64,000 nucleotides of DNA, from NCBI RefSeq assembly GCF_038592905.1, contig NZ_CP151943.1:1150001-1214000 (forward strand). The letters run 5' to 3'. Source of the DNA: Neobacillus sp. FSL H8-0543. Lineage in GTDB: Bacteria > Bacillota > Bacilli > Bacillales > Cytobacillaceae. The translations under genes and the position numbers were made by a program. The notes below the pieces were generated by a model, which was not told the origin of the DNA, made no database searches, and was given only the letters and a program-made list of their open reading frames with translations. Of this stretch, positions 27,137-57,575 are shown piece by piece; position 1 is the stretch's first letter, and every line of letters starts with the position of its first letter.

Positions 27137-27411
27137 GTATCTGGGGCGCTCCCATCTTACCCAAATTCCAAAATTGCGCCGCTTCGGGCAAATGGGGTTC
27201 TCCCATTTTACCCAAATTCCAAAAAGGCACCGCTTCGGGCAATTGGGGCTCTCCCATTTTACCCAAATTCCAAAAAAGGCACCGCTTCGGGCAATTGGGG
27301 CGCTCCCATCTTACCTAAATTTGAAAATAGCGTCATTACGGGCAAATAGATAGAGCTCTCCCCATCTAAACTAAATTTCAAAAAGTGCACTATTACATGC
27401 ACATTGACTAG
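27137..27411. repeat. Tandem repeat array A, period 51-56 bp, five units
   Basis: Units contain TGGGG..CTCCCAT, TTACCCAAATTCCAAAA and CGCTTCGGGCAA. Unit starts near 27142, 27193, 27244, 27296 and 27348. Units 1-4 are close copies; unit 5 is diverged. It fills most of the 375-bp gap between convergent genes. A frame open across it lacks a ribosome site and reads as repeat translation, not a gene. Confidence 0.92.
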
Positions 27412-27432
27412 TTCTACGTACTAAAATTCCTT

Positions 27433-27477
27433 AAAAAAAGACGTACCATGGCTACTACCCGCCGGTACGTCTCTTTT
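27433..27477 (-). terminator. Terminator of dat
   Basis: Minus strand GACGTACC (27471-27464) pairs with 27447-27440, 16-nt loop, then seven T. Confidence 0.75.
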
Positions 27478-27487
27478 ACTAATAAAT

Positions 27488-28348
27488 TTAGTCTGCCAAT
27501 TTACCACATTGTTTCTCTATTTCCTGTTGAAACAGCTCTTGTATCTTTCTTGTAACTTCACCCGGTGTCCCATTATTTACTTTATTCCCGCTAATTTCAA
27601 TCACTGGCATAACCTCAGAGGTTGTGCTTGAAAGGAAAACTTCATCAGCAGTTTCGAGGTCATCTAGTGAGAAAGTTTTTTCTTCAAAAGGAATGTCATT
27701 GTCCGAACATACATCCAAGATAACATCCTTTGTAATTCCTTTTAAAATCAAATGATTCGATTCATGAGTCATCACAGCACCATTTTTCACGATATAAATA
27801 TTCGAAGAACTTCCCTCTGTTACATCCTGCCCGCGATGCTGAATTGCTTCATAGCAGCCTGCTTCTACTGCCTTTTGTTTAGCTAATAAATTTCCAAGCA
27901 AATTCAGGCTTTTGATATCACAGCGAAGCCAGCGAATATCTTCTGTTAGGATAGCCTTCACACCAGTATGAAAGCTTTCCTCAGGGCGGCGCACTTCATT
28001 TGTATATGCTACCAGAGTGGGTGTCACCTTTACCGTTGGAAACGCATGATTCCGCGGTGCCGTTCCTCTAGTAATCTGCATATAAATTGTTCCCAATTGA
28101 AGCTTATTTTTCTCTATTAGTTTTTCAAGCGTTTCTTTCAGCTGTTCAGTCGTGTATGGTATTGAAATGCCAATGCTATCTGCACTTTTAACAAATCGGC
28201 TTAAATGTTCATTTGCCGTAAACAATTTACCATTGTAAACTCTAATTACCTCATACACTCCGTCACCAAATTGATAACCACGATCCTCTACGTCAACCTT
28301 TGCTTCCGAACGCGGGATAATTTCCCCATTTAATAATGTAAATTTCAT
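27488..28348 (-). CDS. dat: D-amino-acid transaminase
   Basis: Class IV PLP aminotransferase making D-glutamate/D-alanine for cell wall use from 2-oxo acids. 286 aa. Hallmarks: VEDRGYQFGDGVYEVIRVYNG, the PLP lysine in RCDIKSLNLLGNL, and EGSSSNIYIVKNG with FLSSTTSEVMPVIEI. Start at ATG 28348 (8 nt after GGGG); the ATG at 28354 is also possible. It follows pepV by 21 nt and is probably co-transcribed. Confidence 0.93.
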   Translation of the reverse strand: MKFTLLNGEIIPRSEAKVDVEDRGYQFGDGVYEVIRVYNGKLFTANEHLSRFVKSADSIGISIPYTTEQLKETLEKLIEKNKLQLGTIYMQITRGTAPRNHAFPTVKVTPTLVAYTNEVRRPEESFHTGVKAILTEDIRWLRCDIKSLNLLGNLLAKQKAVEAGCYEAIQHRGQDVTEGSSSNIYIVKNGAVMTHESNHLILKGITKDVILDVCSDNDIPFEEKTFSLDDLETADEVFLSSTTSEVMPVIEISGNKVNNGTPGEVTRKIQELFQQEIEKQCGKLAD

Positions 28349-28369
28349 TCCCATTTCCCCTTTAGTGGA

Positions 28370-29791
28370 TTATTCAGCTTTTGCTAGTTCATAAATGGCC
28401 TGTGCATAAATAGCAGTCGCCTTTAATAAGTCCTCAATATAGATATATTCATCTTTCTGATGGGCAATGTCTGGCCTTCCAGGGAATAACGGACCAAAAG
28501 CCACACCAGCTTTTAATGACCGGGCGTAAGTTCCGCCACCAATTGCAATTAACTCGGCCTTTTCTCCTGTCTGTTCTTCATATACCTTTTTCAATGTTTG
28601 AATAAGAAACTCTTTCTCATCGACATGGTGTGGCTTTGTATCTTTGAATTTCTCAATCGCAAAGCCCGCTTCTAGCAATAGTTCATCAAGCTTTGCTTTT
28701 GTATCTTCCATATTATTTGTAACCGGATACCGGCAGGTCAACCCGATACTGCCGCCAACTGAAGGGGAATAGGAAAGCTTCCCTGGATTAATGGTTAACT
28801 CTCCGGAGATATCATCAGTATAAGCGACACCAAGGTTCACACCTCTTGAATCTTCAAAGAAATACTTGGCTAGGAATTGAAAATAATGTGCAGCTTTATC
28901 ATCTAGACTTAGCTTAGATAAGAACAAGGCTAAATGCAGACCAGCACTTTTTCCTTTTTTCGGTTCCATCCCGTGAGCAGATATACCCTTAACCTCAAAG
29001 ATCAACTCACCGTTTTCAACATAAGATTTTCCTTCTAGTTCGAATTTCTTAAGAAAATCTGTAAACCTTTGGACTGTATCGATTTGATTGTCTTGAACAA
29101 CAACACTTGCTTTAGCAAAGTCGGGAACCATATTGTATCTTTTTCCCGAAGTATAATTAATCACTTCAATATTTGCACCTGTATTTTCTATACCCGCTCT
29201 TTTTTGAATGATATCAATATCAGCAATGCCTTTTTCCGCATTGATAATCGGAAAATCAGCATCTGGAGCAAAGCCCAATGAAGGCATTTCTTCGTGTTCA
29301 AAATAATGATCCACGCAACGCCAATCGCTTTCTTCATCTGTACCAATAATCATTCGCACACGTTTGTTTAGAGGCAGTCCAAGCTCCTTAACAATTTTCA
29401 TTGCATAATAGGTAGCCATTGTTGGACCCTTATCATCAAGCGCACCGCGAGCAAAAATTTTACCCTCGCGAATTTCAGCTGCATAAGGGTCACTTGACCA
29501 GCCGTCACCCTCTGGTACGACATCAACATGACAGAGAATTCCAAGCAATTCCTTCCCTTCACCAAATTCAAGATGTCCCGCTAAATTGCCAACATTTTTC
29601 GGAATGAATCCATCCGTTTCACCGAGATTGAGCATAAAGTCAAGTGCTTCCTTCACCCCCTTACCTAATGGTGCGTCTGGAGCAGGGTTCTCTTCGTCTA
29701 AAAGACTTTTAATATGTAATAATCCTTGTGTATCTTTAATAAGTGCCTCTTTACGATTTTCTACTTCGTTCATCCAATCAATCTTTGTCAA
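28370..29791 (-). CDS. pepV: Dipeptidase PepV
   Basis: M20 metallopeptidase hydrolysing Xaa-Xaa dipeptides in the cytoplasm. 473 aa. Metal ligands: GILCHVDVVPEGDGW, GRGALDDKGP-like ARGALDDKGPTMA and GTDEESDWRCVDHYF; FPGRPDIAHQKDEYI closes the active site. A lid domain interrupts the catalytic domain as usual. The start is TTG, 8 nt after AGGAGG. First gene of pepV-dat, linking peptide breakdown to D-amino-acid supply. Confidence 0.93.
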   Translation of the reverse strand: MTKIDWMNEVENRKEALIKDTQGLLHIKSLLDEENPAPDAPLGKGVKEALDFMLNLGETDGFIPKNVGNLAGHLEFGEGKELLGILCHVDVVPEGDGWSSDPYAAEIREGKIFARGALDDKGPTMATYYAMKIVKELGLPLNKRVRMIIGTDEESDWRCVDHYFEHEEMPSLGFAPDADFPIINAEKGIADIDIIQKRAGIENTGANIEVINYTSGKRYNMVPDFAKASVVVQDNQIDTVQRFTDFLKKFELEGKSYVENGELIFEVKGISAHGMEPKKGKSAGLHLALFLSKLSLDDKAAHYFQFLAKYFFEDSRGVNLGVAYTDDISGELTINPGKLSYSPSVGGSIGLTCRYPVTNNMEDTKAKLDELLLEAGFAIEKFKDTKPHHVDEKEFLIQTLKKVYEEQTGEKAELIAIGGGTYARSLKAGVAFGPLFPGRPDIAHQKDEYIYIEDLLKATAIYAQAIYELAKAE

Positions 29792-30212
29792 TGAGTGTGC
29801 CTCCTATATATTCTTACTATTTTAGACAATATCATTATTGTAGATATCTTACCAATTTTCTTTATAAAAATGAACAAAAGTATTATCAAATTGCACATAT
29901 ACTTGATTGAAATTTTTATAAAATTCAATTAATTAACATATTCTTACCGTTAATGCCCATATACTAGACTAAGAATAGGAAAAGGGAGGTGGAACCGAAC
30001 GATTTAACAAAGCTGACAAGGAATATTTTGTAAAGCAGGTACTAATGGTGGAAATTTTCAAAAATTCTGGGTACAATATTAATAGACATCTTTAGTATTC
30101 ACTAACGATAAAGAAAAGGAGTTGTCCGCGGAAAACAAATTTACATACTATCATACAGGCGTCGGTAGCAGGATATTGCCTTAGGTTTGAAAAAAGGATA
30201 GGGAGTGGTTCT
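29792..30212. other. 420-bp intergenic region upstream of ytzE
   Basis: AT-rich, with no recognised gene. Two ribosome-site-like runs occur on the plus strand (GGGAGG at ~29992 and AAAGGAG at ~30115). A stop-free stretch of 38 codons follows a TAG near 29980 and ends with TAG at ~30093, encoding RFNKADKEYFVKQVLMVEIF; its only ATG leaves 17 codons. I cannot tell a relic from chance. No terminator or clear promoter was found. Confidence 0.4.
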
Positions 30213-30434
30213 TTGAAACCTTCGACCAACCGGATGTTAAACCGCATCAAATGTATCTACATGTTTATTCGTAATAATGGAACTGTCACAACACAGGAAC
30301 TTGTAGAGGAATTTGGTATCACTCCTCGCACCATACAACGAGATTTAAATGTCTTAGCCTATAATGACTTGGTAATAAGCCCAAGCCGCGGAAAATGGAC
30401 AACAACAGAAAAGAAAGTAAAATTATCATCATAA
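30213..30434 (+). CDS. ytzE: YtzE, short DeoR-type HTH protein
   Basis: 73-residue protein that is only a DeoR-family helix-turn-helix: TQELVEEFGITPRTIQRDLNVLAYNDLV, ending in PSRGKWTTTEKK. It lacks the sugar-phosphate-binding domain, so how it senses a signal is unknown; it may bind DNA alone or as a dimer partner. TTG start 7-8 nt after GGGAG. Confidence 0.9.
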   Translation: MKPSTNRMLNRIKCIYMFIRNNGTVTTQELVEEFGITPRTIQRDLNVLAYNDLVISPSRGKWTTTEKKVKLSS

Positions 30435-30455
30435 ATAACTGAATAAACAAATTCC

Positions 30456-30499
30456 AGCAAACTGTACGTGATCCTATCACGTGCTAGTTTGCTTTTTTT
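30456..30499 (+). terminator. Terminator of ytzE
   Basis: A ~17-bp near-perfect stem (AGCAAACTGTACGTGAT with its complement), 3-nt loop, followed by seven T. Confidence 0.9.
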
Positions 30500-30625
30500 A
30501 ATTTCTATTGAAAATCCCCAAATATATGATATATTAGTATAACACTTTAGCGCTAAAAAGCGTCTAAGTAGAAAAGAAAAAATGTCTACAATACTCTATC
30601 AATAGACTGCAAAGGTAGGAGCATC

Positions 30626-31975
30626 ATGGAGAAGAATCAGCAGGAATTAAAAAAAGGTTTACTGCCAAGGCATGTACAGTTTATTGCCTTAGCTGGAATG
30701 ATTGGTACAGGAATTTTTAAAGGTAGCTCCGATACATTAAATATTGCTGGGCCAAGTGTGGTCTTTACCTATTTAATTGGCGGACTTTTATTATTTATTG
30801 TGATGGCGGCATTAGGTGAGATGGCAATCGCCTTTCCCAATAACAATGTACAGCTGCTTCTAAATAAGGCTTTCGGCTTCCGAATTTCGTTTATAACCGG
30901 ATGGCTTTATTGGATTAACTGGACAATTGTCACTGTTGTTGAATTACTGGCTGCAGGGAGCTTCTTGCAATTTTGGTATCCGTCCGTTCCACTCTGGCTT
31001 TTAAGTCTTTTTTGTGCAGCAGTGATTATCGGAATTAATTTAACTCAAGTAAAGTATTACGGTGAACTCGAGTTTTGGTTTGCAGGAATAAAAATTGTCG
31101 CATTAATTGCTTTTATTGCTTTGGGATCATTAATCATCTTTGGTATCTTTCCAAGTAACATTGAAGATCCGTTATCAAACTATACTGCTCACGGCGGATT
31201 TTTCCCGCATGGGGTCAGCGGAATGATGAGTGCATTTTTAGTAGTAATGTTTTCATATGGCGGGGCTGAACTAATCGGTGTCGCTGTAACCGAGACAAAG
31301 GATGCTGGGCGAGTTATACCTAGTATCATAAAGGGTGCTGTATGGAGAGTAATTATCTTTTATATTTTCCCGATTTTAATTATTTGCGGAATTATGCCGT
31401 GGGATAAGGTCACAGGTGTTGATAGTCCTTTTGTACAGGTTTTTAGTTTATCCGGTTTACCTGGTGCTGCACATATAATGAATTTTGTTTTGTTAACGGC
31501 TGTACTTTCAGCCGCAAATTCTGGCATCTATGCAACATCCAGAACACTTTATTCTATGGGAAAAACAGGAGTAGCGCCAAAGCGTTTAGCTAAAATTTCT
31601 AAAACTGGCATTCCCTTAATAGGAATACTCATCGCTACAGTATCTATTTTAATCGGGGTCTTCTTAGCTTACATGAGCCCTGATCAAGTCATAAGCTATC
31701 TTATGACAATTCCAGGGTTTACAATCATGTTAATCTGGATTGGAATTTGTTCAGCACAATTAAAGCTTAGGTCACAATATAAACAACAACCAGCTTTCCG
31801 AGTAAAATGGTTCCCATTCACCACGATTTTTGCCATTTTAGCATTAAGCATGATCTTTATCGGGTTTATGCTAAGTCCGAATAACCTAATTGGTTCAACC
31901 GTTTGTTTGATAATAGTAGGAATCTTGGTTCTTCTTTCCTTTGTCGTGAAGAATAACAGGACAGCTATGAAGTAA
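30626..31975 (+). CDS. APC-family amino-acid permease
   Basis: 449 aa, about 12 membrane helices. The N-terminus LPRHVQFIALAGMIGTGIFKGSSDTL carries the unwound-helix GxGxF motif of amino-acid/polyamine/cation (APC) permeases of the AAT group (B. subtilis YtnA/RocE/GabP relatives), and ETKDAGRVIPSIIKGAVWRVIIFY is typical. Likely an H+/amino-acid importer; substrate not decidable. Ribosome site GTAGGAG. No terminator follows; the palindromic repeat copy 4 does. Confidence 0.88.
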   Translation: MEKNQQELKKGLLPRHVQFIALAGMIGTGIFKGSSDTLNIAGPSVVFTYLIGGLLLFIVMAALGEMAIAFPNNNVQLLLNKAFGFRISFITGWLYWINWTIVTVVELLAAGSFLQFWYPSVPLWLLSLFCAAVIIGINLTQVKYYGELEFWFAGIKIVALIAFIALGSLIIFGIFPSNIEDPLSNYTAHGGFFPHGVSGMMSAFLVVMFSYGGAELIGVAVTETKDAGRVIPSIIKGAVWRVIIFYIFPILIICGIMPWDKVTGVDSPFVQVFSLSGLPGAAHIMNFVLLTAVLSAANSGIYATSRTLYSMGKTGVAPKRLAKISKTGIPLIGILIATVSILIGVFLAYMSPDQVISYLMTIPGFTIMLIWIGICSAQLKLRSQYKQQPAFRVKWFPFTTIFAILALSMIFIGFMLSPNNLIGSTVCLIIVGILVLLSFVVKNNRTAMK

Positions 31976-32046
31976 TAGATCAGGTTGTCCCAAAAGTATA
32001 AATTTTAGCGGCACCCCTTTTTTTGTGTCGCTCTATGTAATTTGTC

Positions 32047-32176
32047 TGTTGATTTCTGCTCCGGGCGCTTCGCTTTCCGCGGGCGGTCCGGGGAGCCTCC
32101 TCGTCGCTTTGCTCCTGCGGGGTCTCCCCTGCCCCGTCCTCCCGCAGGAGTCTTCGCGCCCTCCTCTCCAATCAAC
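32047..32176. repeat. Palindromic dispersed repeat, copy 4
   Basis: 130 bp, ends TGTTGATT and AATCAACA, inside close to copy 2 (CTTTCCGCGGGCGGTCCGGGGA). It follows the permease gene. Open frames over it on both strands are repeat artefacts. Confidence 0.9.
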
Positions 32177-32225
32177 AGAGTTGAAAAAAATTTCAAAGTT
32201 AACCCAAAAAGTAAGGAGTAACATA

Positions 32226-32272
32226 AAGCTGACTCAAAAGTGATGTCATTTAACAACCTTTTGAGTCAGCCT
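32226..32272 (-). terminator. Terminator after the tubby-like gene
   Basis: A 13-bp perfect stem GCTGACTCAAAAG (32228-32240) / 32258-32270, 17-nt loop; minus-strand tail TTTATG. Confidence 0.65.
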
Positions 32273-32285
32273 CCTTTGAGTTATA

Positions 32286-32807
32286 TTAACCGCCTCCACC
32301 GTTTCCGGCAGCACTTTGTTTACGCTTTATTATTGCATTTATCCCCATCACCATTGCAATTAGTTCCTCATTGGAGATATGACTAGAATAATTACTCAAT
32401 TGATAGGCCGGTGAGGCAAAAAAACCACTTACCTTTTCAAACTTTCCAACCAGATTAGATTGTTCATCGGTAATATCATATTCACGAGAGAAGGCTTCAC
32501 CTTTAATTTGAAAAACTCCACGGCCATAGGCATCGTATTCATATTTTTTGGCTAAAAAGGTCAGTTTCGCTTTTAGAACACCGATCTCCTGTTCATTCGC
32601 ATCATAAATCTGCCACTTATTACTAAAAAAAGGGAACTTACCGCTAACCACTGTCCTTCCATTGGTATCTAGTACATCAATACTGGAAGAAAAAGCACTT
32701 TTTAAATCCAATTCACCAATGTTTTCTTTTAAACTATTATATATTTCCGTCCTACCTGTCGAAAAGAAGTTATCTTTAAAGTAGAGCACTTTTTTATCGC
32801 TCATCAT
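32286..32807 (-). CDS. Tubby-like / LURP-one-related family protein
   Basis: About 173 aa, unknown function. The alternating short strands (VLDTNGRTVVSGKFPFFSNKWQIYD, GVFQIKGEAFSREYDITDEQSNLVGKFEK) fit the tubby C-terminal-like (LOR/YxjI) beta-barrel that in other systems binds membrane lipids. It ends in the odd tail AAGNGGGG. Three ATGs stand in a row (32810, 32807, 32804) behind GGGGGTGG; the middle or last has the better spacing. Confidence 0.75.
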   Translation of the reverse strand: MMSDKKVLYFKDNFFSTGRTEIYNSLKENIGELDLKSAFSSSIDVLDTNGRTVVSGKFPFFSNKWQIYDANEQEIGVLKAKLTFLAKKYEYDAYGRGVFQIKGEAFSREYDITDEQSNLVGKFEKVSGFFASPAYQLSNYSSHISNEELIAMVMGINAIIKRKQSAAGNGGGG

Positions 32808-32879
32808 CATCCACCCCCGAAGAAGTCCCATTTCTATAAATACGATTTCTACGGGTAAAAAGTTTCATCAGTGGTGGTG

Positions 32880-32975
32880 TTATTCGTCTTTAAATAGTTC
32901 AAAGTGAAATCTTATGAATTGTGCCACTCCAGTTGATGCCAGTTCATGAATGATTCTTAAACTATTCGAAGCCAT
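32880..32975 (-). CDS. Possible 31-residue peptide
   Basis: The frame reads MASNSLRIIHELASTGVAQF and on to ELFKDE, a plausible amphipathic helix with an acidic end. It begins 2 nt after the speD terminator and has no ribosome site, so translation is doubtful. Kept because its composition looks coding; it could equally be chance. Confidence 0.25.
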   Translation of the reverse strand: MASNSLRIIHELASTGVAQFIRFHFELFKDE

Positions 32976-32976
32976 A

Positions 32977-33011
32977 TAAAAAAGCAGCTTTATTTTTAGT
33001 AAAGCCGCCTT
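32977..33011 (-). terminator. Terminator of speD
   Basis: Minus strand GCGGCTTTA pairs with TAAAGCTGC (33008-33000 / 32992-32984), followed by TTTTTT. Confidence 0.85.
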
Positions 33012-33068
33012 TTCCTCCTTTTGGCAATGATCCGACGACATAGTAGCACGATCATAATAATTGTCATT

Positions 33069-33878
33069 TTATTGGACGATGTTTTTCCCATAGAAGATTT
33101 CATCCATCTCTAGCTTTAATCTCTCAGTGATTTCAATATGCTCGTCAGGATGCAAGGATTCTTTAGTATAGCCAAATAAATAGTTATTTAAGTCAAATTC
33201 CCGTAATTTACATTTCGTATGAAAAATATTTTCTTGATACACATTTACATCAATCATATCAAATAATTCGCCCACATCGTCTGGAATATAGTTTTGAATC
33301 GAACTAATTTCATGATCAATAAATAATTTGTGACCCGTTTTGTCGCGCGTAAAACCACGGACCCGGTAATCAATCGTCATCACATCCGTCTCAAACGAAC
33401 GTATAAGATAATGCAGTGCTTTTAGCGGAGATATCTCACCGCATGTTGATACATCGATATCTGCCCGAAAAGTACTAATCCCCTCATCTGGATGAAATTC
33501 AGGGTATGTATGAACGGTGATATGACTCTTATCTAACTGCATAACAACAGACTCCGGCAATGGCCCAGGTGACTCTTCAAATGATTCTGAAGGAGCATCT
33601 TCCACCGCTCCTTCAGACACCAACATAGTGACACTGGCACCTGCGGGCTCAAAATCTTGGCTTGCAACATTTAATACATGAGCACCAATAATTTCCGATA
33701 CGTGTTTTAATATATTCTGCAATCTTTCTGCACTGTATTCCTCATCAATATACTTTAAGTAGGCTTCTCGTTCTTCCTTATTTCTTGTAAAACAAATATC
33801 ATACATATTAAAACTCAATGATTTGGTCAGGTTATTAAAGCCATGTAATTCAATGTGCTGTTCGTGTGTAAGTTTCAT
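33069..33878 (-). CDS. speD: S-adenosylmethionine decarboxylase, E. coli type
   Basis: Self-processing pyruvoyl enzyme that decarboxylates SAM to give the aminopropyl donor for spermidine. The 269-aa proenzyme resembles the ~264-aa E. coli SpeD across its length ([48 protein letters not shown]), not the ~125-aa B. subtilis enzyme. Cleavage should occur between Lys117 and Ser118 ([12 protein letters not shown]), Ser becoming pyruvoyl. No speE lies nearby. GGGGGAG precedes the ATG. Divergent from dps. Confidence 0.93.
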
Positions 33879-33985
33879 GACTACTCCCCCTTAAACAGGC
33901 TGTAAATATTTTTAGATTACCCCGTTTTGTTCCATGTTAGTTATTTTTGTTTAAAATCACATTAACGAATAAACACTTTCCTTAT

Positions 33986-34000
33986 TTATAATTATTATTA
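33986..34000 (+). promoter_or_regulatory. PerR-type operator upstream of dps
   Basis: TTATAATTATTATTA matches the PerR box TTATAATNATTATAA with one mismatch. It ends 7 nt before the dps -35. PerR de-represses mrgA/dps-type genes under peroxide in B. subtilis. Confidence 0.65.
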
Positions 34001-34007
34001 TTTAGTA

Positions 34008-34035
34008 TTTACTTTTAAATAGTATGTGTTATAAT
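34008..34035 (+). promoter_or_regulatory. SigA promoter of dps
   Basis: TTTACT (34008-34013), 16-nt spacer, TATAAT (34030-34035). Confidence 0.65.
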
Positions 34036-34067
34036 TAATTTAGATGATATATTAGGAGGAATGACCA

Positions 34068-34502
34068 ATGACTTTAGAACAAACAATCAATCAACAAATC
34101 GCAAACTGGAATATATTATATACGAAACTGCACCAGTTCCATTGGTACGTAAAAGGTCCGCATTTCTTTACCTTGCATGCTAAATTTGAAGAATTATATG
34201 ATGAGGCAGCAGCAACAATAGACGAATTAGCTGAACAATTATTAACGATTGATGGCAAACCCATTTCAACATTAAAAGAATACCTTCAGTATGCTACCTT
34301 AGAAGAAACATCTGACATGTTAACTGCAGAAGAAATGGTACAAGCACTCATAAATGACTACTCTTTATTAATTTCTGATTTAATAACCGGAAAAGAAGTG
34401 GCCGAACAAAACAATGATGAAGTTACCGGTGATATCTTCTTAGAACTAATTGGCAAACTCAATAAACACAACTGGATGCTAAAATCATTTTTACAAGGAT
34501 AA
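34068..34502 (+). CDS. dps: Dps-family ferritin-like DNA/iron protection protein
   Basis: Dps dodecamers oxidise and store Fe2+ and shield DNA from peroxide. 144 aa. The inter-subunit ferroxidase residues are intact: HQFHWYVKGPHFFTLHAKFEELYDE with His25 and His37, then IDE at Asp52. There is no long basic tail, so DNA binding would be weak, as in Listeria Dps. AGGAGGA ribosome site; PerR-type box upstream; hairpin terminator after it. Confidence 0.95.
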   Translation: MTLEQTINQQIANWNILYTKLHQFHWYVKGPHFFTLHAKFEELYDEAAATIDELAEQLLTIDGKPISTLKEYLQYATLEETSDMLTAEEMVQALINDYSLLISDLITGKEVAEQNNDEVTGDIFLELIGKLNKHNWMLKSFLQG

Positions 34503-34508
34503 AATGTT

Positions 34509-34546
34509 AAAAAACGCATGTGGCTACGATTGCCACATGCGTTTTT
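34509..34546. terminator. Bidirectional terminator of dps and rluB/rsuA-like gene
   Basis: A 14-bp perfect stem AAAACGCATGTGGC (34511-34524) with 34532-34545; its right arm overlaps the stop codon of the neighbouring minus-strand gene. Confidence 0.9.
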
Positions 34547-35264
34547 ACTTCACCTCATAGGTCTTTAGTAATTCTACTTCCTCATCGGTTAATTCGCGAT
34601 ACTCGCCAAGTTCAAGTGTTTCATCCAAAGGTAATGGCCCCATGGAAATCCGCTTAAGATAGACCACTCTTTTACCAACTGCTTCAAACATCCTTTTTAC
34701 TTGATGAAACTTGCCTTCAGTAATCGTTAGTTCAATGTCTGACATGATACCAGATTTTAAAATTTGCAGTTCCCCTGGCTTTGTTTCATAGCCGTCGTCA
34801 AGTGTAACGCCGGCTGCAAATGCCTTAACATCTGCCTCGGTTACTTCTCCCTCAATGACCGCAAAGTAAGTCTTGGGGACATGCTTTTTCGGAGATAGCA
34901 AGCGGTGGGCTAGCTGTCCGTCATTGGTAATAAGTAATAACCCCTCGGTATCCTTATCCAATCTTCCGACAGGAAATGGCTCGTACACCTGATCTCCCAA
35001 TTCCAATAAATCGATGACTGTTTCCTGGGAACTGTCTTCAGTCGCTGATAAAACTTCTTGAGGCTTGTTCATCATTAAATAAATAAATTCTTTGTATTCA
35101 ATGATTTCACCATTTAGCGTAATTGTTTGGCTGTTTGTATCAACATGCTGTTTGGCATCCTTCACGACAGCATCATCAACTTTAACAGCGCCGCTTTTTA
35201 ATAATTGCTTTACTTCCTTACGGCTGCCATAGCCAAGATTGGCTAGCATTTTATCTATTCTCAA
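34545..35264 (-). CDS. ytzG: RsuA-family 16S rRNA pseudouridine synthase YtzG
   Basis: 239 aa. N-terminal S4 RNA-binding domain (RIDKMLANLGYGSRKEVKQLLKSGAVKVD) followed by the RsuA catalytic core with GRLDKDTEGLLLITNDG (catalytic Asp) and the late EGKFHQVKRMFEA. Related E. coli RsuA makes pseudouridine 516 in 16S rRNA. TTG start, 6 nt after GGAGG. 25 nt downstream of ytgP, probably co-transcribed. Confidence 0.9.
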   Translation of the reverse strand: MRIDKMLANLGYGSRKEVKQLLKSGAVKVDDAVVKDAKQHVDTNSQTITLNGEIIEYKEFIYLMMNKPQEVLSATEDSSQETVIDLLELGDQVYEPFPVGRLDKDTEGLLLITNDGQLAHRLLSPKKHVPKTYFAVIEGEVTEADVKAFAAGVTLDDGYETKPGELQILKSGIMSDIELTITEGKFHQVKRMFEAVGKRVVYLKRISMGPLPLDETLELGEYRELTDEEVELLKTYEVK

Positions 35265-35289
35265 AGAGAACCTCCTCCTGTTTTACCTA

Positions 35290-36912: not shown

Positions 36913-37158
36913 AACTTCGAATCCCTTCCTAGTGAAGAAAAAGTACAGTGAGCAAGATATCAACGATTATTCGACGATTTTTGCACACTATTAGTAGTTT
37001 ACATCTCTTTCGGTTGTGATGCTACTAACAAATAGGTTAAATTTAATAATATCTGTTGACATTTTGTTCTCTTTTTTAATAAGAGTGGTTATGTTTATAA
37101 TAAATAGTTATGCAAACAGTTTACCAAGTAAATGAAAATACATAAAGTTGGTGGAAGT

Positions 37159-41544: not shown

Positions 41545-41796
41545 AAAACCCCTCATCCCAAAAAAGGGACGAGAGGATTGTATGTATCTTCCCGCGGTAC
41601 CACCCACATTAGTGTTGTAAACACTCGCTTCATTCATCCTTAACGCGGAATACGGCAAACATTACTATAACTTTCACGTTTGCAACTCATAGGCGAGTTC
41701 ATGATGTACCCGATTGACTTGCACCAGCCGTCAATTCTCTATAGTCAGGTATAAATCACTACTACTCCTAATCAAAGTCATTCATTATTAAGTATT
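41545..41796 (-). promoter_or_regulatory. T-box riboswitch leader of leuS (Leu specifier CUC)
   Basis: Minus strand: Stem I has the conserved AGAGA and GGTGCAA elements; the specifier loop reads GAACTCGCC with codon CTC (41697-41695). The T-box core TGGGTGGTACCGCG is at 41606-41593. The terminator CCTCTCGTCCC/GGGATGAGGGG plus T-run covers 41577-41543. Uncharged tRNA-Leu would favour the antiterminator and raise leuS. Confidence 0.93.
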
Positions 41797-46719: not shown

Positions 46720-46732
46720 GCTTTTAGGATGA

Positions 46733-47193: not shown

Positions 47194-47231
47194 CTTAAAA
47201 CCCCCTTATATTTATAAAGCACCCACTATTT

Positions 47232-48379: not shown

Positions 48380-48380
48380 T

Positions 48381-48953: not shown

Positions 48954-48976
48954 AACCAGGCTCAGCCTGGTTTTTT
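48950..48976. terminator. Bidirectional terminator between ytqB and ytpB
   Basis: A 9-bp perfect stem AAACCAGGC (48952-48960) / 48964-48972, 3-nt loop. Confidence 0.8.
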
Positions 48977-50078: not shown

Positions 50079-50096
50079 CTGAAAATCTCCCTCCTT

Positions 50097-50900
50097 TTAT
50101 ACAATATAGCCTATTGCTTTTAATTGGCTGGTGACAAAATCCTTAGCATACTCGAATATATCTTCCCGTTCAGGTTCATTAAAGATTTCGTGGTAACATT
50201 TCGGCCACACCTTAAATCTTTTCTCTGATAATGGAGCTTGATTAAACCAATCCTTTACTGCATCTTTATTCACAATTTTATCATCACCCGCTTGCATGAC
50301 CAGCATTGGCACATCTTGCGTTTTATCCATAACAAGAAATGCCTGCTTAATTGCGGCTGCTAACTCCCGATACCATCTTACCGAGACTTTCGTAATATAG
50401 AGAGTATCACCTGAATCTGCTTCCCATACCTCTTCGTTTCTCGTAGCCATCTTAACTGTTAAACCCGAGTTCATTCGTAAGGTAGGAAAAACTACATTTA
50501 TTGGATGTGATAGAGCATCTAAAAACTTTGATGGGGTATGAATTAGTCCTAGACAGGGTGAAGAAAGGATCACACCGGCTATATCGAGTTTTTCTTCCTG
50601 TAAGAGGCGAATGGTAATTAGCCCGCCCATACTATGTCCTAGCAGAAATACTGGCAAGTCATATTGATAGGCAGCCTTTATCCAATCTTTAACTTCAATT
50701 AAATATTCGTTGAAGGAATCGATATGGCCCCTGCGGGATCTTGTTGTCATACCTTGCCCGGGAAGGTCACCCATAATGACATGAAAACCTGATAAACGCC
50801 ACATTTCAATTAACCAACCATAGCGGCGGTGATGCTCCATTGCGCCATGAATCATCACAATGACCGCTTTCGCTTCCCCTTCAGCTTCCCACTTCCACAT
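50097..50900 (-). CDS. ytpA: Alpha/beta hydrolase, lysophospholipase/monoacylglycerol lipase-like YtpA
   Basis: 267 aa. Nucleophile elbow GHSMGG, HGAMEHHRRYG oxyanion loop and late DKIVNKDAV and CYHEIFNEPERE (Asp and His of the triad). In B. subtilis YtpA produces the lysophospholipid antibiotic bacilysocin. AGGAGG 7 nt upstream. First gene of ytpA-ytpB. Confidence 0.9.
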   Translation of the reverse strand: MWKWEAEGEAKAVIVMIHGAMEHHRRYGWLIEMWRLSGFHVIMGDLPGQGMTTRSRRGHIDSFNEYLIEVKDWIKAAYQYDLPVFLLGHSMGGLITIRLLQEEKLDIAGVILSSPCLGLIHTPSKFLDALSHPINVVFPTLRMNSGLTVKMATRNEEVWEADSGDTLYITKVSVRWYRELAAAIKQAFLVMDKTQDVPMLVMQAGDDKIVNKDAVKDWFNQAPLSEKRFKVWPKCYHEIFNEPEREDIFEYAKDFVTSQLKAIGYIV

Positions 50901-51077
50901 ATTCCTTCCTCCTAGAAAAATTGTCCATTCTATATGTTATTACTTATTTTAACATAATACGTCCCAGGGTCGTAAATTATGGTCAATCTTAATCCAAGCT
51001 TTAAGGCAAAAAGCTTTTAATTTACAGGTATGTTTAGTTAAAATTAAATCAGCCTATCAAGTAAAAAGGAGAATATT

Positions 51078-51590
51078 ATGATCTATCCATACAAAGGGAA
51101 GTATCCAAAAATTGCAGACTCAGTATTTATTGCTGATTATACAACAATCACCGGAGATGTTGAAATCGGTGAAGAATCAAGCGTTTGGTTCAATACGGTC
51201 ATCAGAGGTGATGTTGCATCAACCAAAATTGGGAAAAAAGTAAACATCCAAGACAACTCAGTATTGCATCAAAGCCCAAACAATCCTTTAATTTTAGAAG
51301 ATGAAGTGACCATTGGACATCAAGTCATTCTGCATAGCTGTATTGTCAGAAAAAAAGCGTTAATTGGCATGGGTTCGATTGTTCTTGATCAAGCTGAAAT
51401 TGGTGAAGGAGCATTTATAGGTGCAGGGAGCCTTGTAGCCCAAGGAAAGAAGATTCCCCCTAATACACTAGCATTTGGCAGGCCAGCAAAAGTTATTAGA
51501 GAATTGAATGATGAGGATAGAAAGGATATGAATAGAATATTTACAGAATATGCCGAAAAGGCGCAGTATTATAAGTCATTACAAAATTAA
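51078..51590 (+). CDS. ytoA: Gamma-carbonic-anhydrase-like hexapeptide protein YtoA
   Basis: 170-aa left-handed beta-helix of repeated hexapeptides (VFIADYTTITGDVEIGEESSVW onward). Zinc-binding His are retained: QDNSVLHQS, TIGHQVILHSC. Such proteins are carbonic anhydrase-like or acyl-carrying; activity is uncertain. Converges on asnB with repeat array B between. Confidence 0.9.
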   Translation: MIYPYKGKYPKIADSVFIADYTTITGDVEIGEESSVWFNTVIRGDVASTKIGKKVNIQDNSVLHQSPNNPLILEDEVTIGHQVILHSCIVRKKALIGMGSIVLDQAEIGEGAFIGAGSLVAQGKKIPPNTLAFGRPAKVIRELNDEDRKDMNRIFTEYAEKAQYYKSLQN

Positions 51591-51613
51591 CTTGTTGGAT
51601 TGGCCATAAATTC

Positions 51614-51985
51614 TCGTTAAGAGAGCTTTTTTGAAGACATTTCACCGGTTTCCTTGTTGTGTTTTGTCTTTAAGAGAGCTTATTGAAGACATTTCACCAG
51701 CTGCCCTCTTGGGTTTTGTCTTTAAGAGAGCTTATTGAAGACATTTCACCGGTTTCCTTGTTGTGTTTTGTCTTTAAGAAAGCTTATTAAAGACATTTCA
51801 CCGGCTTCCTTGTTGTGTTTTGTCTTTAACAGAGCTTATTGAAGACATTTCACCGACTGCCCTCTTGAGTTTTGTCTTTAAGAGAGCTTATTGAAGACAT
51901 TTCACTTATTTCCTCATAGGGTTTTGTCCTTAAGAAAACTCCTTAAAGACATTTCATCGGTTCCCTTGTTGGGTTTTGTCCTTTA
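51614..51985. repeat. Tandem repeat array B, exact 52-bp period, about seven units
   Basis: Unit markers GAGAGCTT or variants start at 51621, 51674, 51726, 51778, 51830, 51882 and 51934. Each unit has AAGACATTTCACC and TTTTGTCTTTAA; AAGACA and TGTCTT can pair across most of a unit. It fills the 409-bp gap between convergent ytoA and asnB. No gene is supported. Confidence 0.95.
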
Positions 51986-51999
51986 ATTTAATGAAGCCC

Positions 52000-53904
52000 T
52001 TATATTTCCATTGTTTGATGAGTTTTTCCCCATTGGAAATCGCTTTGAAATGCATACTTCTCTTCTACATAAACCTGATGCCAGAGCATAAACATCAGAA
52101 CCGTCCAAATTTTACGGCTATAATCGAACTTTCCCTGACAATGATCATCGAATATTTTTAACAAGTATGTTTTATTTATTAAATGATCTGTGTTGCTCTC
52201 ACGGATGATTCCTTTAGCCCAATCATTCATCTCGTCCTTCAGCCAATGACGAATCGGTACCGGAAAACCAAGCTTTTTTCGGCTGAGTACATGGTCAGGA
52301 ACGATTCCCTCAAACGCTTTTCGGAGAATATATTTTGTTGTCCCGCTTGTAGTCTTCAATCTGGCTGGTATTTTAGAAGCGACATCAAACACCGCTTTAT
52401 CTAAAAAGGGAACACGCAGCTCTAGCGAATGAGCCATCGTCATTTTATCGGCCTTAAGTAAAATATCCCCACGCAACCATGTATGAATATCAATATATTG
52501 CATCTGTTCAACCGCATTATATCCCAAAGATTCTTGATAAAGCAGTTTAGTGATATCTGTAAAATTTATCCCTTCCCGGTAATTAACCAATAGCTTCCGT
52601 TTTTCCTTTTCAGAAAACATCTTTGCATTTCCAATATATCGTTTTTCTATTGGAGTTACACCGCGCTCAATAAAGCTTTTTCCCTTCATTCCTTCTGGTA
52701 GCATTCTCGCTGCCCATCTTAAAAACGTTTTTATTACACGCGGGATTTTATTAAATATCCTTAGTGAATGTGGCTCACGATAAATATTGTAGCCGCCAAA
52801 AAGTTCATCAGCCCCCTCGCCTGATAAGACAACTTTTACATGCCTTTTTGCCTCACGAGCGACGAAATAGAGGGGAACACAAGCTGGGTCAGCAAGTGGG
52901 TCATCCATATGCCAGATGATTTTTGGCAGTTCCTCCATATACTCTTCAGGCGTAATAACATAGCTTATATTCTCCACTCCAAGTTTTGCAGCTGATTCTT
53001 TGGCCACATCAATTTCACTAAACCCATTTCGTTGAAACCCCACAGAAAAGGTTTTAATAGCAGGATGAAAGTCCTTTGCAATTGAAGCAATAATAGTTGA
53101 ATCAATTCCACCTGAAAGGAAAGAGCCTACTGGCACATCTGCCCGCATATGAAGTTTAACTGAATCAATCAAAACTTCCTTAATCTCATTGACAAAGTCC
53201 GTTTCAGACTTATTTGCTGGCTTAAAACTTGCCTTCCAATACTTAAGAATGTTTATTGGAGACCCGATTCTCTTAGTGAAATAACATCCTGGTTCGAGCT
53301 TTTTGATTCCAGCAGAAAGGGTGTCTGGTTCTGGAACATATTGATAGGTTAGATAATGCTGTAAGGAATCCAAGTTCAGTTCAGCTTTTTCCAACGCAAG
53401 CAGGATGCTTTTTTTCTCCGAAGCAAAATAGGTTCGTCCATTCCCCTCGTAGTGAAAAAAGGGCTTGATGCCAAAGCGGTCTCGGGCACCAAATAAAACC
53501 TGAACCTGTTTATCCCAAATGACGAACGTAAACATCCCGCGAAGCTTGTTTACTGCCTTTTCTCTTAGCTGGCTATAAAGGGCTACGATAACCTCTGTGT
53601 CGCTGTTAGTTGCAAATGTTAATCCGTTTTGTTGAAGCTCTTGGCGTAGTTCAAGGTAGTTATAAATTTCCCCATTAAAAATTATCCAATAGCGCTCGTT
53701 TTCGTATGTAAGCGGCTGATGCCCATTTTCAATATCAATGATACTTAGCCGGCGAAAACCAAATTGAATAAACTCATCCTGATAATAACCTTCATCATCA
53801 GGACCCCGATGAGTAATCATTTCGTTCATTTTTTTAAAGAGTTCATTTCCCTCATCATTATCCGTTTGCGCATTGTCATTTATACAGCCAATAAACCCGC
53901 ACAT
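52000..53904 (-). CDS. asnB: Asparagine synthetase, glutamine-hydrolysing
   Basis: 634 aa. The N-terminal glutaminase begins MCGFIGCIND with nucleophile Cys2 and has NGEIYNYLELR; ammonia passes to the C-terminal AMP-forming domain with SGGIDSTIIASIA (PP-loop) and LSGEGADELFGGY. It converts aspartate to asparagine in the cytoplasm; the length fits the B. subtilis AsnB vegetative enzyme. Order asnB-metK-pckA is as in B. subtilis. AGGTGA ribosome site. Confidence 0.95.
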   Translation of the reverse strand: MCGFIGCINDNAQTDNDEGNELFKKMNEMITHRGPDDEGYYQDEFIQFGFRRLSIIDIENGHQPLTYENERYWIIFNGEIYNYLELRQELQQNGLTFATNSDTEVIVALYSQLREKAVNKLRGMFTFVIWDKQVQVLFGARDRFGIKPFFHYEGNGRTYFASEKKSILLALEKAELNLDSLQHYLTYQYVPEPDTLSAGIKKLEPGCYFTKRIGSPINILKYWKASFKPANKSETDFVNEIKEVLIDSVKLHMRADVPVGSFLSGGIDSTIIASIAKDFHPAIKTFSVGFQRNGFSEIDVAKESAAKLGVENISYVITPEEYMEELPKIIWHMDDPLADPACVPLYFVAREAKRHVKVVLSGEGADELFGGYNIYREPHSLRIFNKIPRVIKTFLRWAARMLPEGMKGKSFIERGVTPIEKRYIGNAKMFSEKEKRKLLVNYREGINFTDITKLLYQESLGYNAVEQMQYIDIHTWLRGDILLKADKMTMAHSLELRVPFLDKAVFDVASKIPARLKTTSGTTKYILRKAFEGIVPDHVLSRKKLGFPVPIRHWLKDEMNDWAKGIIRESNTDHLINKTYLLKIFDDHCQGKFDYSRKIWTVLMFMLWHQVYVEEKYAFQSDFQWGKTHQTMEI

Positions 53905-54004
53905 TTACAGATCACCTCACTAGTTATTTCACCATTTCACACAAAAATCGACTGATTGGTCTTAAACATTCTATTCTGTCTCTCTTGATGTAAGAATTAG
54001 AAGG

Positions 54005-54047
54005 CAAAAAAAAGAGGAGGCTGCAAAATTATTTGCAACTTCCTCTC
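54005..54047 (-). terminator. Terminator of metK
   Basis: Minus strand: a long imperfect stem, GAGAGGAAGTTGCA with TGCAGCCTCCTC, followed by eight T. Confidence 0.85.
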
Positions 54048-54069
54048 TTTGGTATTCCTATAACTTTTC

Positions 54070-55269
54070 TTAAAGACTTGCTTGTTGACGCAGGGTGTCA
54101 GCTTTATCCGTACGCTCCCATGGCAAATCAACATCTGTACGGCCAAAATGTCCATATGCTGCTGTTTGCTTGTAAATAGGTTTACGAAGATCAAGCATGT
54201 TAATGATTCCTGCAGGGCGAAGGTCGAAGTTCTCACCAACAAGGTCAACTAAAACTTCTTCACTAACTGTTCCTGTTCCAAAAGTTGCAACAGAAATTGA
54301 TACTGGTCTAGCTACACCAATTGCATATGCCAGCTGCACTTCACACTTGTCTGCAAGGCCAGCTGCAACAATATTTTTTGCAACATAACGTGCTGCATAA
54401 GCTGCAGAACGGTCAACCTTTGTTGGATCCTTACCAGAGAATGCACCGCCACCATGACGAGCATATCCGCCATAAGTATCTACAATTATTTTACGGCCTG
54501 TCAAACCAGCATCCCCTTGAGGTCCGCCAATTACGAAACGTCCTGTTGGGTTGATAAAGTATTTTGTATTTTCATCAATTAGTTCTTTAGGTACAACTGG
54601 ATTAATAACATATTCTTTCAGATTACGCTGGATTTGCTCTAACGTTACCTCTGGATTATGTTGTGTTGAGATTACGATTGTATCAATCCGTACTGGTGTG
54701 TCATTTTCATCATACTCAACGGTTACTTGGGTTTTTCCATCTGGACGAAGGTATTCAAGAACTTTATCTTTACGTACCTCTGTTAACTTACGTGCAAGTT
54801 TATGTGCTAATGATATTGGAAGCGGCATTAGTTCAGCTGTTTCATTACATGCATAACCAAACATTAAACCTTGGTCTCCAGCACCAATAGCTTCGATTTC
54901 TTCATCTGACATTAGACCTTCACGTGCTTCAAGTGCCTGGTCAACACCCATTGCAATATCAGGGCTTTGTTCGCCTATAGAAGTTAATACAGCACATGTC
55001 TCTGAGTCAAAGCCATATTTCGCACGATCATAGCCAATTCCTTTAATCGTTTCACGAACAATTTTTGGAATGTCCACGTATGTAGAAGTAGTGATTTCCC
55101 CTGCTACTAGGACTAATCCGGTAGTAACTGATGTTTCAGCCGCAACACGAGCATTGGCATCCTTAGCTAATATTGCATCTAGTATCGAATCAGAAATCTG
55201 GTCACACATCTTATCAGGATGACCTTCAGTTACTGACTCAGAAGTGAACAAACGACGTTTTGTTGACAT
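54070..55269 (-). CDS. metK: S-adenosylmethionine synthetase
   Basis: Makes SAM from methionine and ATP. 399 aa, three-domain fold. Signatures [12 protein letters not shown] (ATP), [13 protein letters not shown], and [19 protein letters not shown] (phosphate loop). It is controlled by the S-box leader at 55433-55614. It supplies SAM to the trmB, speD and ytqB products seen in this window; LuxS recycles the product side. Confidence 0.97.
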
Positions 55270-55432
55270 CTGAATTCCTCCTATATCTTATGAGATTGAA
55301 TCAAGGTTCTATGAAGGTTACAGGAATTCTTCTTGAACATTGACATTGATACGGTACTCATTTCCTTAGTATGAAATAAACTAACGATTTTTATTAGAAA
55401 CTATTATCATCATAAAAGGACTTATACAAAAC

Positions 55433-55628
55433 AAAAAACCTTACCACTTGAGGAAAGGTTGTTTTCGGCCTTTCGCTCTTATCGTTCAAGGTCATAGCCT
55501 TGCGTCAGATTAGCACCTTCGCATATGAAATGAATCAATTACACAATCATTCTTTTCATTTTGCAGGTTGCTGGGTTTCATAGGGCCTGTCCCTCCACCA
55601 GCTCAGGATAAGAGAGTATCCGTTCAAA
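55433..55628 (-). promoter_or_regulatory. SAM-I (S-box) riboswitch leader of metK
   Basis: Minus strand P1 CTCTTATC (55614-55607 side) pairs with 55483-55476. Conserved GAGGGACAGGCCCTATGAAACCC-type core, GGTGC and CTGAC-like elements lie inside. Terminator AACCTT-loop-AAGGTT plus T-run is at 55460-55433. SAM binding should shut metK off. Confidence 0.95.
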
Positions 55629-55633
55629 TTAAA

Positions 55634-55662
55634 ATAATACGGAACATGTCGAACATTGTCAA
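55634..55662 (-). promoter_or_regulatory. SigA promoter of metK
   Basis: Minus strand TTGACA (55662-55657), 17 nt, TATTAT (55639-55634), just upstream of the S-box. Confidence 0.85.
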
Positions 55663-55768
55663 TGACTTTTTCAAGGATTCAATGGTAAAAAACAGAAATT
55701 TTAACATTAATAACGTATAGTATTATTACAGCCTAATTTCACCGAATAGTATAGACTATTCAGACTAA

Positions 55769-55779
55769 TGTGTTATACT
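55769..55779 (+). promoter_or_regulatory. CcpN-type operator / -10 region of pckA
   Basis: TGTGTTATACT fits the CcpN motif TRTGHYATAYW and contains the -10 TATACT; TAGACT lies 16 nt upstream. CcpN represses pckA and gapB on glucose in B. subtilis. Confidence 0.5.
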
Positions 55780-55830
55780 TTTTATAATTAAATCTTGGTA
55801 AAAAACATTGTAAAGGAAGGGTTAGCGTAG

Positions 55831-57417
55831 ATGAATTCTGTTCATATCCCAAATGCATTAAGCTTACTATTAAAGGAAAATCATGTCCAAATGCAATTAT
55901 CTGTCCCTCAACTAGTAGAAAAAATCTTATCACGAAATGAAGGTGTATTAACCTCCACTGGTGCCATAAGTGTTTCAACTGGAAAATATACAGGACGTTC
56001 CCCTCAAGACAAATTTATAGTTGTAGAAGAGTCCATAAAGGATAAAATTGCTTGGGGCTCATTAAATCAGCCGATTTCCGAGGAAGTATTTAAAAACCTT
56101 TATCAAAAGGTTACTGCTTATTTAAAACAAGCAAATGAAGTTTTCGTATTTAAAGGATTTGCCGGGGCTGACAAGAAATCGCAATTGCCTATTCAGGTAG
56201 TAACGGAATTTGCATGGCATAACTTGTTTGCTCATCAATTATTTATTCGTCCCAGTGAAGAAGAGTTGTTAGCACATAAAACTGGATTCAATGTTATCTG
56301 TGCACCAAACTTCAAGGCTGACCCCCTAATTGACGGGACAAATTCTGAAACATTTATCATTATCTCTTTCGAACAACGAACCGTTTTAATTGGCGGTACA
56401 GAATATGCAGGTGAAATGAAGAAAGCAATCTTCTCTGTAATGAACTTCATTTTACCTGAAAATAATATTTTATCGATGCACTGTTCAGCAAATGTTGGTT
56501 TTGAGGGTGATGTCGCCCTTTTCTTTGGGCTATCTGGTACAGGAAAAACCACATTGTCTGCTGACCCAAAACGCCGGTTGATTGGTGATGATGAGCACGG
56601 GTGGTCACCGCATGGTGTCTTTAATATTGAGGGTGGCTGCTATGCAAAGACCATTAATCTGTCCCGTGAAAAAGAACCGCAAATCTTTGAGGCCATCCAT
56701 TTTGGATCAGTCCTTGAAAATGTTATGGTTATGCCTGAATCAAGAATTGCTGATTATGATGATGGGTCATTAACGGAAAATACCCGTGCAGCCTACCCGA
56801 TTCAAGCAATTGATAATATTGTTCTGCCTAGTATTGCTGGGCATCCGAACACGATTGTTTTTTTAACAGCTGATGCTTTTGGTGTATTGCCGCCAATTTC
56901 AAAATTAACAAAGGAACAAGCGATGTATCATTTCTTAAGCGGCTATACGTCAAAGCTTGCAGGAACGGAAAGAGGAGTAACCTCACCGGAAGCAACCTTC
57001 TCTACCTGCTTTGGTGCACCATTCCTTCCACTTCCAGCAACACGCTATGCAAAAATGCTTGGCGATAAAATTCTTGAGCATAACGCGAAGGTTTACCTTG
57101 TGAATACCGGCTGGACTGGCGGGGAATATGGTGTTGGCAGCCGAATGAAGCTTTCTTATACAAGAGCAATGGTGCAAGCTGCACTTGAAGGGGAACTTGA
57201 CACTGTTGAAACGGTTAGAGATGAAATTTTCGGGTTAAATATACCGCTTCATATTGCTGGTGTTCCCGACGAAGTCCTGCAGCCAAACAAAACGTGGCCT
57301 GATCCAAAAGCCTACGAAATGAAAGCCAAAGAACTGGCTAAAAAATTCCAGGAAAACTTCAAAAAGTTCTCTGATGCACCAGTAGGTGTTGAAGCAAATG
57401 GTGGTCCTATCGTTTAG
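55831..57417 (+). CDS. pckA: Phosphoenolpyruvate carboxykinase (ATP)
   Basis: Converts oxaloacetate and ATP to phosphoenolpyruvate, the first committed gluconeogenic step. 528 aa. ATP loop GLSGTGKT at residues 233-240, GRSPQDKF early, metal site [20 protein letters not shown], and [11 protein letters not shown] late. With acsA it allows growth on acetate. The ribosome site GGAAGGG is about 11 nt from the ATG. Confidence 0.96.
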
Positions 57418-57453
57418 AATTTGGATTCAACTGAGTAAGAAATTCACTATTTC

Positions 57454-57575
57454 TGACCATGAAGCGGTTATGATGACCGTTTACTTTTAATAATAGCAAT
57501 AGCGGTCACCATGAAGCGCTCATGATGACCGTTTCCTTTTATAAATAGGGAGTGCGGTCACCATGAAGCGATTAA
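57454..57575. repeat. Tandem repeat array C, exact 52-bp period, hairpin units
   Basis: ACCATGAAGCG recurs at 57456, 57508 and 57560. The middle unit forms CGGTCACCATGA (57503-57514), loop AGCGC, TCATGATGACCG (57520-57531): 12-bp stem with one mismatch, then TTTCCTTTT. It may serve as terminator for pckA. Confidence 0.9.

Follow-up and report, generated by a model that had tools for sequence, protein, structure and literature searches.

The stretch of DNA analysed here, called the window, comprises 64,000 nucleotides (positions 1150001-1214000) of the single 5.296-Mb contig of Neobacillus sp. FSL H8-0543, and it holds three tandem repeat arrays, A, B and C, each placed between two convergent genes. 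Tandem Repeats Finder (TRF), applied to the window, to a sample of the genome and to the same sample after shuffling, assigns them periods of 51, 52 and 52 nt, and the arrays described in an earlier sequence-only reading do therefore exist as tandem repeats; the shuffled control gave only two rows, with periods of 21 and 27. The genome was sampled systematically in 60 stretches of 20 kb, which together with the window amount to 1.264 Mb (a 23% sample), and it is this sample, not the complete genome, that underlies the period and placement statistics. Gene prediction relied on a home-made hexamer-based caller instead of a standard annotator, and arrays under the significance threshold escape detection.

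Array A (27142..27411) lies in the junction 27112..27487, between genes matching cysteine synthase A (cysK) and a D-amino-acid transaminase. With a period of 51, it has about 3.5 good copies by TRF (27142-27345, in rows that reach 27321 and 27345), followed by degenerate copies that can be traced by eye to about 27411. Its odd-centred dyad, AAATGGG-N5-CCCATTT, has p=0.013 under one scoring and 0.124 under another. Three more matches to this array occur at two places in the genome, and it has no match, among the matches listed, to R1, a covariance model of the 52-nt unit built from the arrays of this genome. Array B (51617..51986, minus strand, which is the leading strand here) fills most of the junction 51591..51999, between genes matching a gamma-carbonic anhydrase (YtoA-like) and an asparagine synthase (asnB). 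It has a period of 52 and 7.1 copies and belongs to a superfamily that shares a 27-nt dyad; six full 52-nt units (51640..51951, minus strand), each consisting of the 27-nt dyad and a 25-nt purine-rich spacer, are matched by R1, although the unit at 51744-51795 was itself among those used to build the model. The dyad of array B taken by itself is borderline (p=0.065, 0.023 and 0.095 under three scorings), so the claim of a dyad there draws on the family. Array C (57456..57570, plus strand) has a period of 52 and 2.2 copies and is found in the junction 57418..57587, between genes matching phosphoenolpyruvate carboxykinase (pckA) and a DUF2584 protein (YtmB-like). Its odd dyad, GGTCACCATGAAGCGGTTATGATGACC, resembles that of the superfamily (p=0.020 under one scoring, 0.205 under another); it gives a weak match to R1 (57504-57555, E=0.21) and, along 40 nt, is 83% identical to sequence at the edge of a superfamily array. 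The yto and ytm names of the neighbours of arrays B and C are those given in the earlier reading.

The 52-nt tandem repeats of Bacillaceae are a known class, and these arrays are part of it. According to the main text of the study by Subirana and Messeguer (PMC8161180), 1886 tandem repeats with a unit of 51-53 nt are present in 176 Bacillus genomes; the class, left unexplained there, combines a constant size with a variable sequence that is not conserved between species, and its proposed roles are those of nucleoid sites or sources of small RNAs. The arrays studied here share with the class, as it is described there and in the available text of PMC6749651 and PMC8625621, the 51-53-nt period, the variable sequence, the many short non-coding arrays and the partial conservation between strains. 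The periods of A, B and C (51, 52 and 52) fall within the published range, and this genome likewise has many arrays in several sequence families. With respect to the published threshold of at least four repeats, B passes (7.1), A reaches 3.5 by TRF plus its degenerate copies, and C stays below (2.2).

The period is sharply defined across the genome. The sample and the window contain 562 intergenic regions of 110 bp or more; 28 of them hold a significant array, and the lag is 51, 52 or 104 in 23 of these, the remaining lags being 36, 40, 40, 42 and 57. The shared period of about 52 bp that had been read from the three arrays thus extends well beyond the window, with no broad spread of periods. 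Their presumed non-coding nature is also borne out, as 21 of the 22 rows to which TRF gives a period of 51, 52 or 103 are intergenic and the remaining one lies at the edge of a stretch. A strong period-103 array (about 2 x 51.5) was observed at the edge of a sampled stretch (L040:19360-19842) and is excluded from every count. Six 60-bp tandem repeats outside intergenic space, in stretches L032 and L041, are probably protein repeats.

Regarding placement, the 20 arrays of this lag class outside the window comprise 12 at convergent junctions, seven between tandem genes and one at a divergent junction, against a background of 912 junctions (130 convergent, 644 tandem and 138 divergent). The excess at convergent over tandem junctions is significant (Fisher p=5.6e-6), also when weighted by array-free intergenic length (p=5.2e-6 for convergent against all, p=8.2e-5 against tandem). 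Per junction, arrays are commonest at convergent sites and rarest at divergent ones. The convergent enrichment that had been anticipated is hence real yet not universal: the idea that arrays sit only at convergent junctions holds for all three in the window and fails outside it, where eight of 20 are found elsewhere. In the set of 31 arrays obtained by family searches, 11 are convergent, 17 tandem and three divergent. Loci from other genomes were picked by BLAST to array B (congeners) or by R1 (four other taxonomic families), neither being a random choice. In the four other families, five of 20 arrays are convergent (13 of 119 junctions) and 14 tandem; in the congeners, seven of 18 are convergent (15 of 134 junctions) and nine tandem, these junction backgrounds counting the array junctions too. 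The other-family set consists of 20 loci, 19 of them with a typed array (L332 has none, and an untyped second array in L318 enters the count of 20); the congener set also has 20 loci, 18 with a typed array (L342 and L352 have none). A transcript-collision role confined to convergent junctions finds no support in these data, given that arrays between tandem genes are common (7/20, 14/20 and 9/18 in the three sets) and that, as described below, orientation tends to follow replication.

The three arrays had been described as unrelated and as having no sequence in common, which is wrong for B and too strong for the class: array B has about 30 superfamily arrays scattered over the genome. At least 170 R1 matches were found in this genome, where the best 150 first-look candidates were scored. 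A survey of 61 genomes of the order, with the best 96 candidates scored per genome, gave at least 10 positive ones, this one included; the other nine, in several taxonomic families, have at least 89, 52, 22, 15, 11, 8, 7, 2 and 1 matches, the last two being marginal. BLAST of array B finds matches in 18 of 30 genomes of the genus, again with this one included. On the lagging strand near 1.9068 Mb, the unit L248:2646-2697 and its neighbours show the consensus dyad TGTCGTTCATAAGGGTGATGAACGACA, identical to the dyad of litoralis 42_52_9, a published family (PMC8161180). This identity suggests a common descent across genera.

The anatomy of the unit was studied in those 44 of the 54 arrays in hand that have a period of 52 and 2.9 units or more, each read on its purine-rich strand. 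An odd centre gives the best dyad in 42 of them, with one even and one tie, and all 26 arrays whose dyad is individually significant (p<=0.05) are odd. The unit of the main families, and of the one superfamily into which most typed arrays of this genome fall, can be described as a 27-nt odd-centred hairpin-like dyad, with arms of about 10 bp and a centre A-A-G-G/C, followed by the 25-nt purine-rich spacer. Alignment A1, in which 37 arrays are represented by a single unit each over 52 columns and array C is omitted, reveals shared core bases: G2, A12 and A22 do not vary at all, and T3, C4, T6, G13, G24, C26, A28 and A50 reach at least 90%. Arrays L247, L252, L260 and L273, in which the best dyad is off register or atypical, did not enter the profile. 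The profile left six of the 44 arrays unplaced (L029, L030, L254, L265 at 2007546, L272 and L273), and the first four of these retain a significant dyad with a different sequence. A dyad of the same kind is visible in the published class, where TGTC-n-TTCAT..ATGAA-n-GACA, seen in arrays here, recurs in coagulans 8_52_18 and litoralis 42_52_9. Among the consensus units printed in Table 1 of PMC8161180 (27 units, of which those of 50 and 54 nt were left out), 17 of 24 have a significant dyad, all 17 odd and spanning 25-33 nt, some of these families being near duplicates.

The two arms change together. In A1, 85.9% of cells are paired, versus 70.8% after shuffling and at most 48.1% with slid partners, and two-sided arm changes occur in 57 cells versus 25.4 in shuffles, a number that reflects few independent events since arm changes are common to related arrays. 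The inner arm columns 7-21, 8-20 and 9-19 show near-perfect covariation with varying bases. Pairing reaches 98.0% in a model-fitted alignment of 90 distinct R1 matches, a value that leans towards R1, which was built from this genome. Arm pairing is therefore largely conserved while the sequence varies among families. The fixed length of the unit is shown by the array period rather than by the gap-free alignment.

The arrays also have a preferred orientation with respect to replication. GC skew changes sign in the interval 2.40-2.48 Mb, being negative before it and positive after it, from which it follows that the leading strand is the minus strand in the window. Two stretches near this turn, L042 and L043 (2484001-2504000 and 2572001-2592000), are very A+T-rich (G+C 0.29 and 0.26), with their coding length mostly or entirely on the plus strand. 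The leading strand carries 30 of the 38 profile-typed arrays, a set drawn partly from family searches: 19 of 20 convergent ones and 11 of 18 others. The only convergent exception is array C, typed by one unit, and among divergent arrays one of three agrees with the leading strand. R1 clusters, grouped by hand among the matches listed, lie on the leading strand in 27 of 31 cases, with exceptions near 1.773, 1.995, 2.014 and 2.982 Mb. A base-composition artefact was considered and rejected: the purine-rich strand is the leading one in 21 of 23 sample arrays, against no more than 43 of the 68 convergent regions that hold no array, and homologous arrays detected by BLAST flip strand with the replichore (exceptions at 3305802, 1772994, 1994764, 2013544, 2682452 and 2981510).

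In other genomes, polarity was judged by local GC skew after removal of the array region, and 33 of 37 typed loci agree with it: 19 of 19 in the four other families (5/5 convergent, 1/1 divergent) and 14 of 18 in congeners (2/2 divergent). All 31 other-genome loci with an absolute skew of at least 0.04 agree with array orientation. At tandem loci the skew mostly coincides with gene direction, so independent weight comes from convergent, divergent and discordant loci. At the discordant tandem loci, four arrays follow replication (L250, L268, L329 and L353) and two follow the genes (L266 and L349), and an orientation set by flanking genes was rejected on this basis. The arrays at L252, L263, L265 (2013506) and L269 oppose both replication and gene direction. 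Compared with the fixed orientation of IS200/IS605-type elements relative to the lagging-strand template, what is seen here is a strong bias with exceptions, and orientation alone is not proof of such a system.

The odd dyad common to the arrays, the superfamily that crosses taxonomic families, the convergent enrichment and the replication polarity are new here. In the main text of PMC8161180 the words "convergent", "intergenic" and "orientation" do not occur, nor do "convergent" and "orientation" in the available text of PMC6749651 and PMC8625621; among the titles and abstracts listed in literature searches, none deals with the placement or polarity of 52-nt arrays, on which earlier work of the same authors may say more.

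The same junctions in other species differ in array content. The YtoA/asnB junction could be read in 24 of 27 congener loci, and a CACCC..GGGTG terminator hairpin is found in 18 of these, with a partial one in two more; this hairpin is not present at the junction of array B. G021 has an unrelated lag-52 array at this place, L176 a lag-41 array next to the hairpin, and L276, the nearest relative, a lag-42 array. The lag 41-42 arrays, which are significant in L176 and L276 only and weaker in L162, L175 and L179, resemble the published 20-21-nt class and are T-rich in the YtoA direction. At the pckA junction, no array with a lag of 50-54 was seen in 13 plus-oriented congener loci, and Mesobacillus persicus has a lag-53 array (with the junction assigned by position, and with genes of distant relatives called by a model trained on the present genome) that matches R1 at E=0.0093.

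It is tentatively proposed that the arrays are a hairpin repeat similar to the repetitive extragenic palindromes (REPs), and that they spread or grow through a coupling to replication of the lagging strand; we hold this as a serious possibility that falls short of being probable. The proposal joins three facts, namely the kept pairing, the fixed length and an orientation that tends to follow the fork. By established replication geometry, the purine-rich strand, where it is the leading one, runs in the sense of the template of the lagging strand. While single-stranded, this template would let the hairpin fold, and a putative enzyme, or template-switching replication, might recognise the dyad and copy or insert a 52-nt unit, in such a way that spread, growth in copy number or both would pass through a single-stranded intermediate of the lagging-strand template. 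Gene 3' ends, convergent ones above all, would accumulate arrays because no promoter is disturbed there, and established arrays may serve as weak polar terminators of head-on transcription. A more specific version is rather unlikely as a whole: here the 52-nt repeats of Bacillaceae would be a single ancient replication-polar hairpin element, non-autonomous and of a new kind, which resides on the lagging-strand template, is served by an enzyme of its own or by a factor associated with the fork, and grows as 52-nt tandem arrays.

The comparison with REPs and the bacterial interspersed mosaic elements (BIMEs) that they form is based on several likenesses. As described in PMC3733652 and PMC1525189, these are short extragenic palindromes placed after genes, often between convergent ones, with many copies and often species-specific; the first of these sources places them mainly between unidirectional and convergent open reading frames. 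The 27-nt dyad and the placement of the arrays agree with an extragenic palindrome of 20-40 nt in many copies near gene ends. In contrast, the arrays lack a conserved GTAG or CGTC tag (column 1 of A1 is T, G or A before GTC), and REPs occur mostly as singletons or dimers while the repeats here form head-to-tail 52-nt tandem arrays. IS200/IS605-type elements are described as using the lagging-strand template (PMC6006769). CRISPR (clustered regularly interspaced short palindromic repeats) also combines regular repeats with a dyad, but here the 25-nt spacer itself repeats with the unit and there are many arrays per genome.

Several observations weigh against a REP-like repeat coupled to the lagging strand. 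The strict head-to-tail order is atypical of REPs; no insertion footprint was seen; no enzyme has been identified, no search for HUH/Y1 proteins having been made; and array B has no match on plasmids or phages, on which grounds mobile-element cargo was rejected. As for the anatomy, the 37 units of A1 were selected as 52-nt windows that fit the profile of the same arrays, which makes the gap-free alignment partly a matter of construction, and covariation was tested on the very dyad used for anchoring. The conserved core bases could equally be compatible with a DNA-binding protein. With regard to orientation, eight of the 38 typed arrays lie on the opposite strand (seven, plus the weakly typed C), the non-convergent arrays favour the leading strand in only those 11 of 18 cases, the array of L257, counted among the 19 convergent ones on the leading strand, is nearly tied, and convergent arrays of congeners agree with the skew in four of seven cases only.

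A second explanation, which we regard as unlikely, considers the arrays as polar terminators: read head-on, each unit would be a hairpin plus a T-richer stretch, and serial weak terminators would stop antisense transcription while sparing that of the leading strand. The 8 nt after the dyad contain on average 3.82 T head-on versus 2.18 in the leading direction, with the head-on value higher in 35 of 38 arrays, but 3.82 of 8 is a weak U-tract. Five of 15 convergent arrays reach the terminator score within the array in the head-on direction only, and in L046 a unit at the array edge is a canonical terminator; on the other hand, eight of the 15 are accompanied by a head-on terminator that lies beyond the array or at its edge (versus 84 of 119 control junctions, in a by-hand reading). 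The likeness to intrinsic (bidirectional) terminators includes the gene-end hairpin and the position of array B, where most congeners read have the common hairpin terminator that is missing here; unlike them, the arrays consist of several to many tandem units and also occupy tandem-gene sites. Tandem genes flank 14 of 20 arrays in the other families, and many arrays have no adjoining head-on gene. The head-on gene is the closer neighbour of eight convergent arrays and the leading gene that of seven (by-hand coordinate reading). Mismatches in the dyads, counted once per array and position because units inside one array are not independent, lean towards A-C, which is G-U in head-on RNA, without reaching significance (56 versus 40 G-T events, p=0.13); another count gives 32 A-C versus 35 G-T events. 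An RNA hairpin of the leading strand was rejected, the predicted excess of G-U over A-C mismatches not being seen in either count. The arrays as general terminator replacements were also discarded, since a leading-direction terminator is present in nine of 15 convergent arrays and 88 of 119 controls, with no clear loss, and no known RNA family was found at the arrays at gathering scores.

The same mismatch counts, with no significant difference between G-T and A-C, are what double-stranded recognition would give, and phased protein sites, in line with the nucleoid proposal of Subirana and Messeguer, are likewise doubtful and if anything slightly more so. Here a dimeric protein would bind the dyads on one face of the DNA, 52 bp being five helical turns, and organise the nucleoid. 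The sharp period, the odd centre in 42 of 44 arrays and in all 17 published families with a significant dyad, the nearly invariant GTC..GAC and the published classes of 20-21 and 52 nt, both near whole helical turns (PMC8161180), are consistent with such sites. However, the inner arm pairs co-vary with changing bases, which a protein of fixed specificity would not require, and binding by itself does not explain the replication polarity. The weakest of these explanations, and an improbable one, is that the arrays are relics left at quasi-palindromes by replication slippage or template switching, without any factor acting in trans, their location reflecting tolerance and their polarity an orientation-dependent stability; the different arrays at one junction among species (the unrelated lag-52 array of G021, lags 41-42 in L176 and L276) and the lack of promoters in convergent gaps fit with it, while the period and core sequence common to several taxonomic families, and a range of periods narrower than pure slippage would be expected to leave, do not.

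The 52-nt class has been called enigmatic, with its constant size, variable sequence and no known function, and the shared odd dyad, the cross-family superfamily and the replication bias now define its anatomy, make R1 available as a search model and lead to concrete predictions. Should the polarity come from single-strand copying, the arrays would represent a repeat system of a new, replication-coupled kind; should it come from termination, they would be a genome-wide means of limiting head-on transcription.

Two further features were observed in the window, both on the minus strand. One is an S-adenosylmethionine (SAM) riboswitch at 55476-55614, with metK downstream at 54070-55269, and the other is a T-box leader at 41562-41784.

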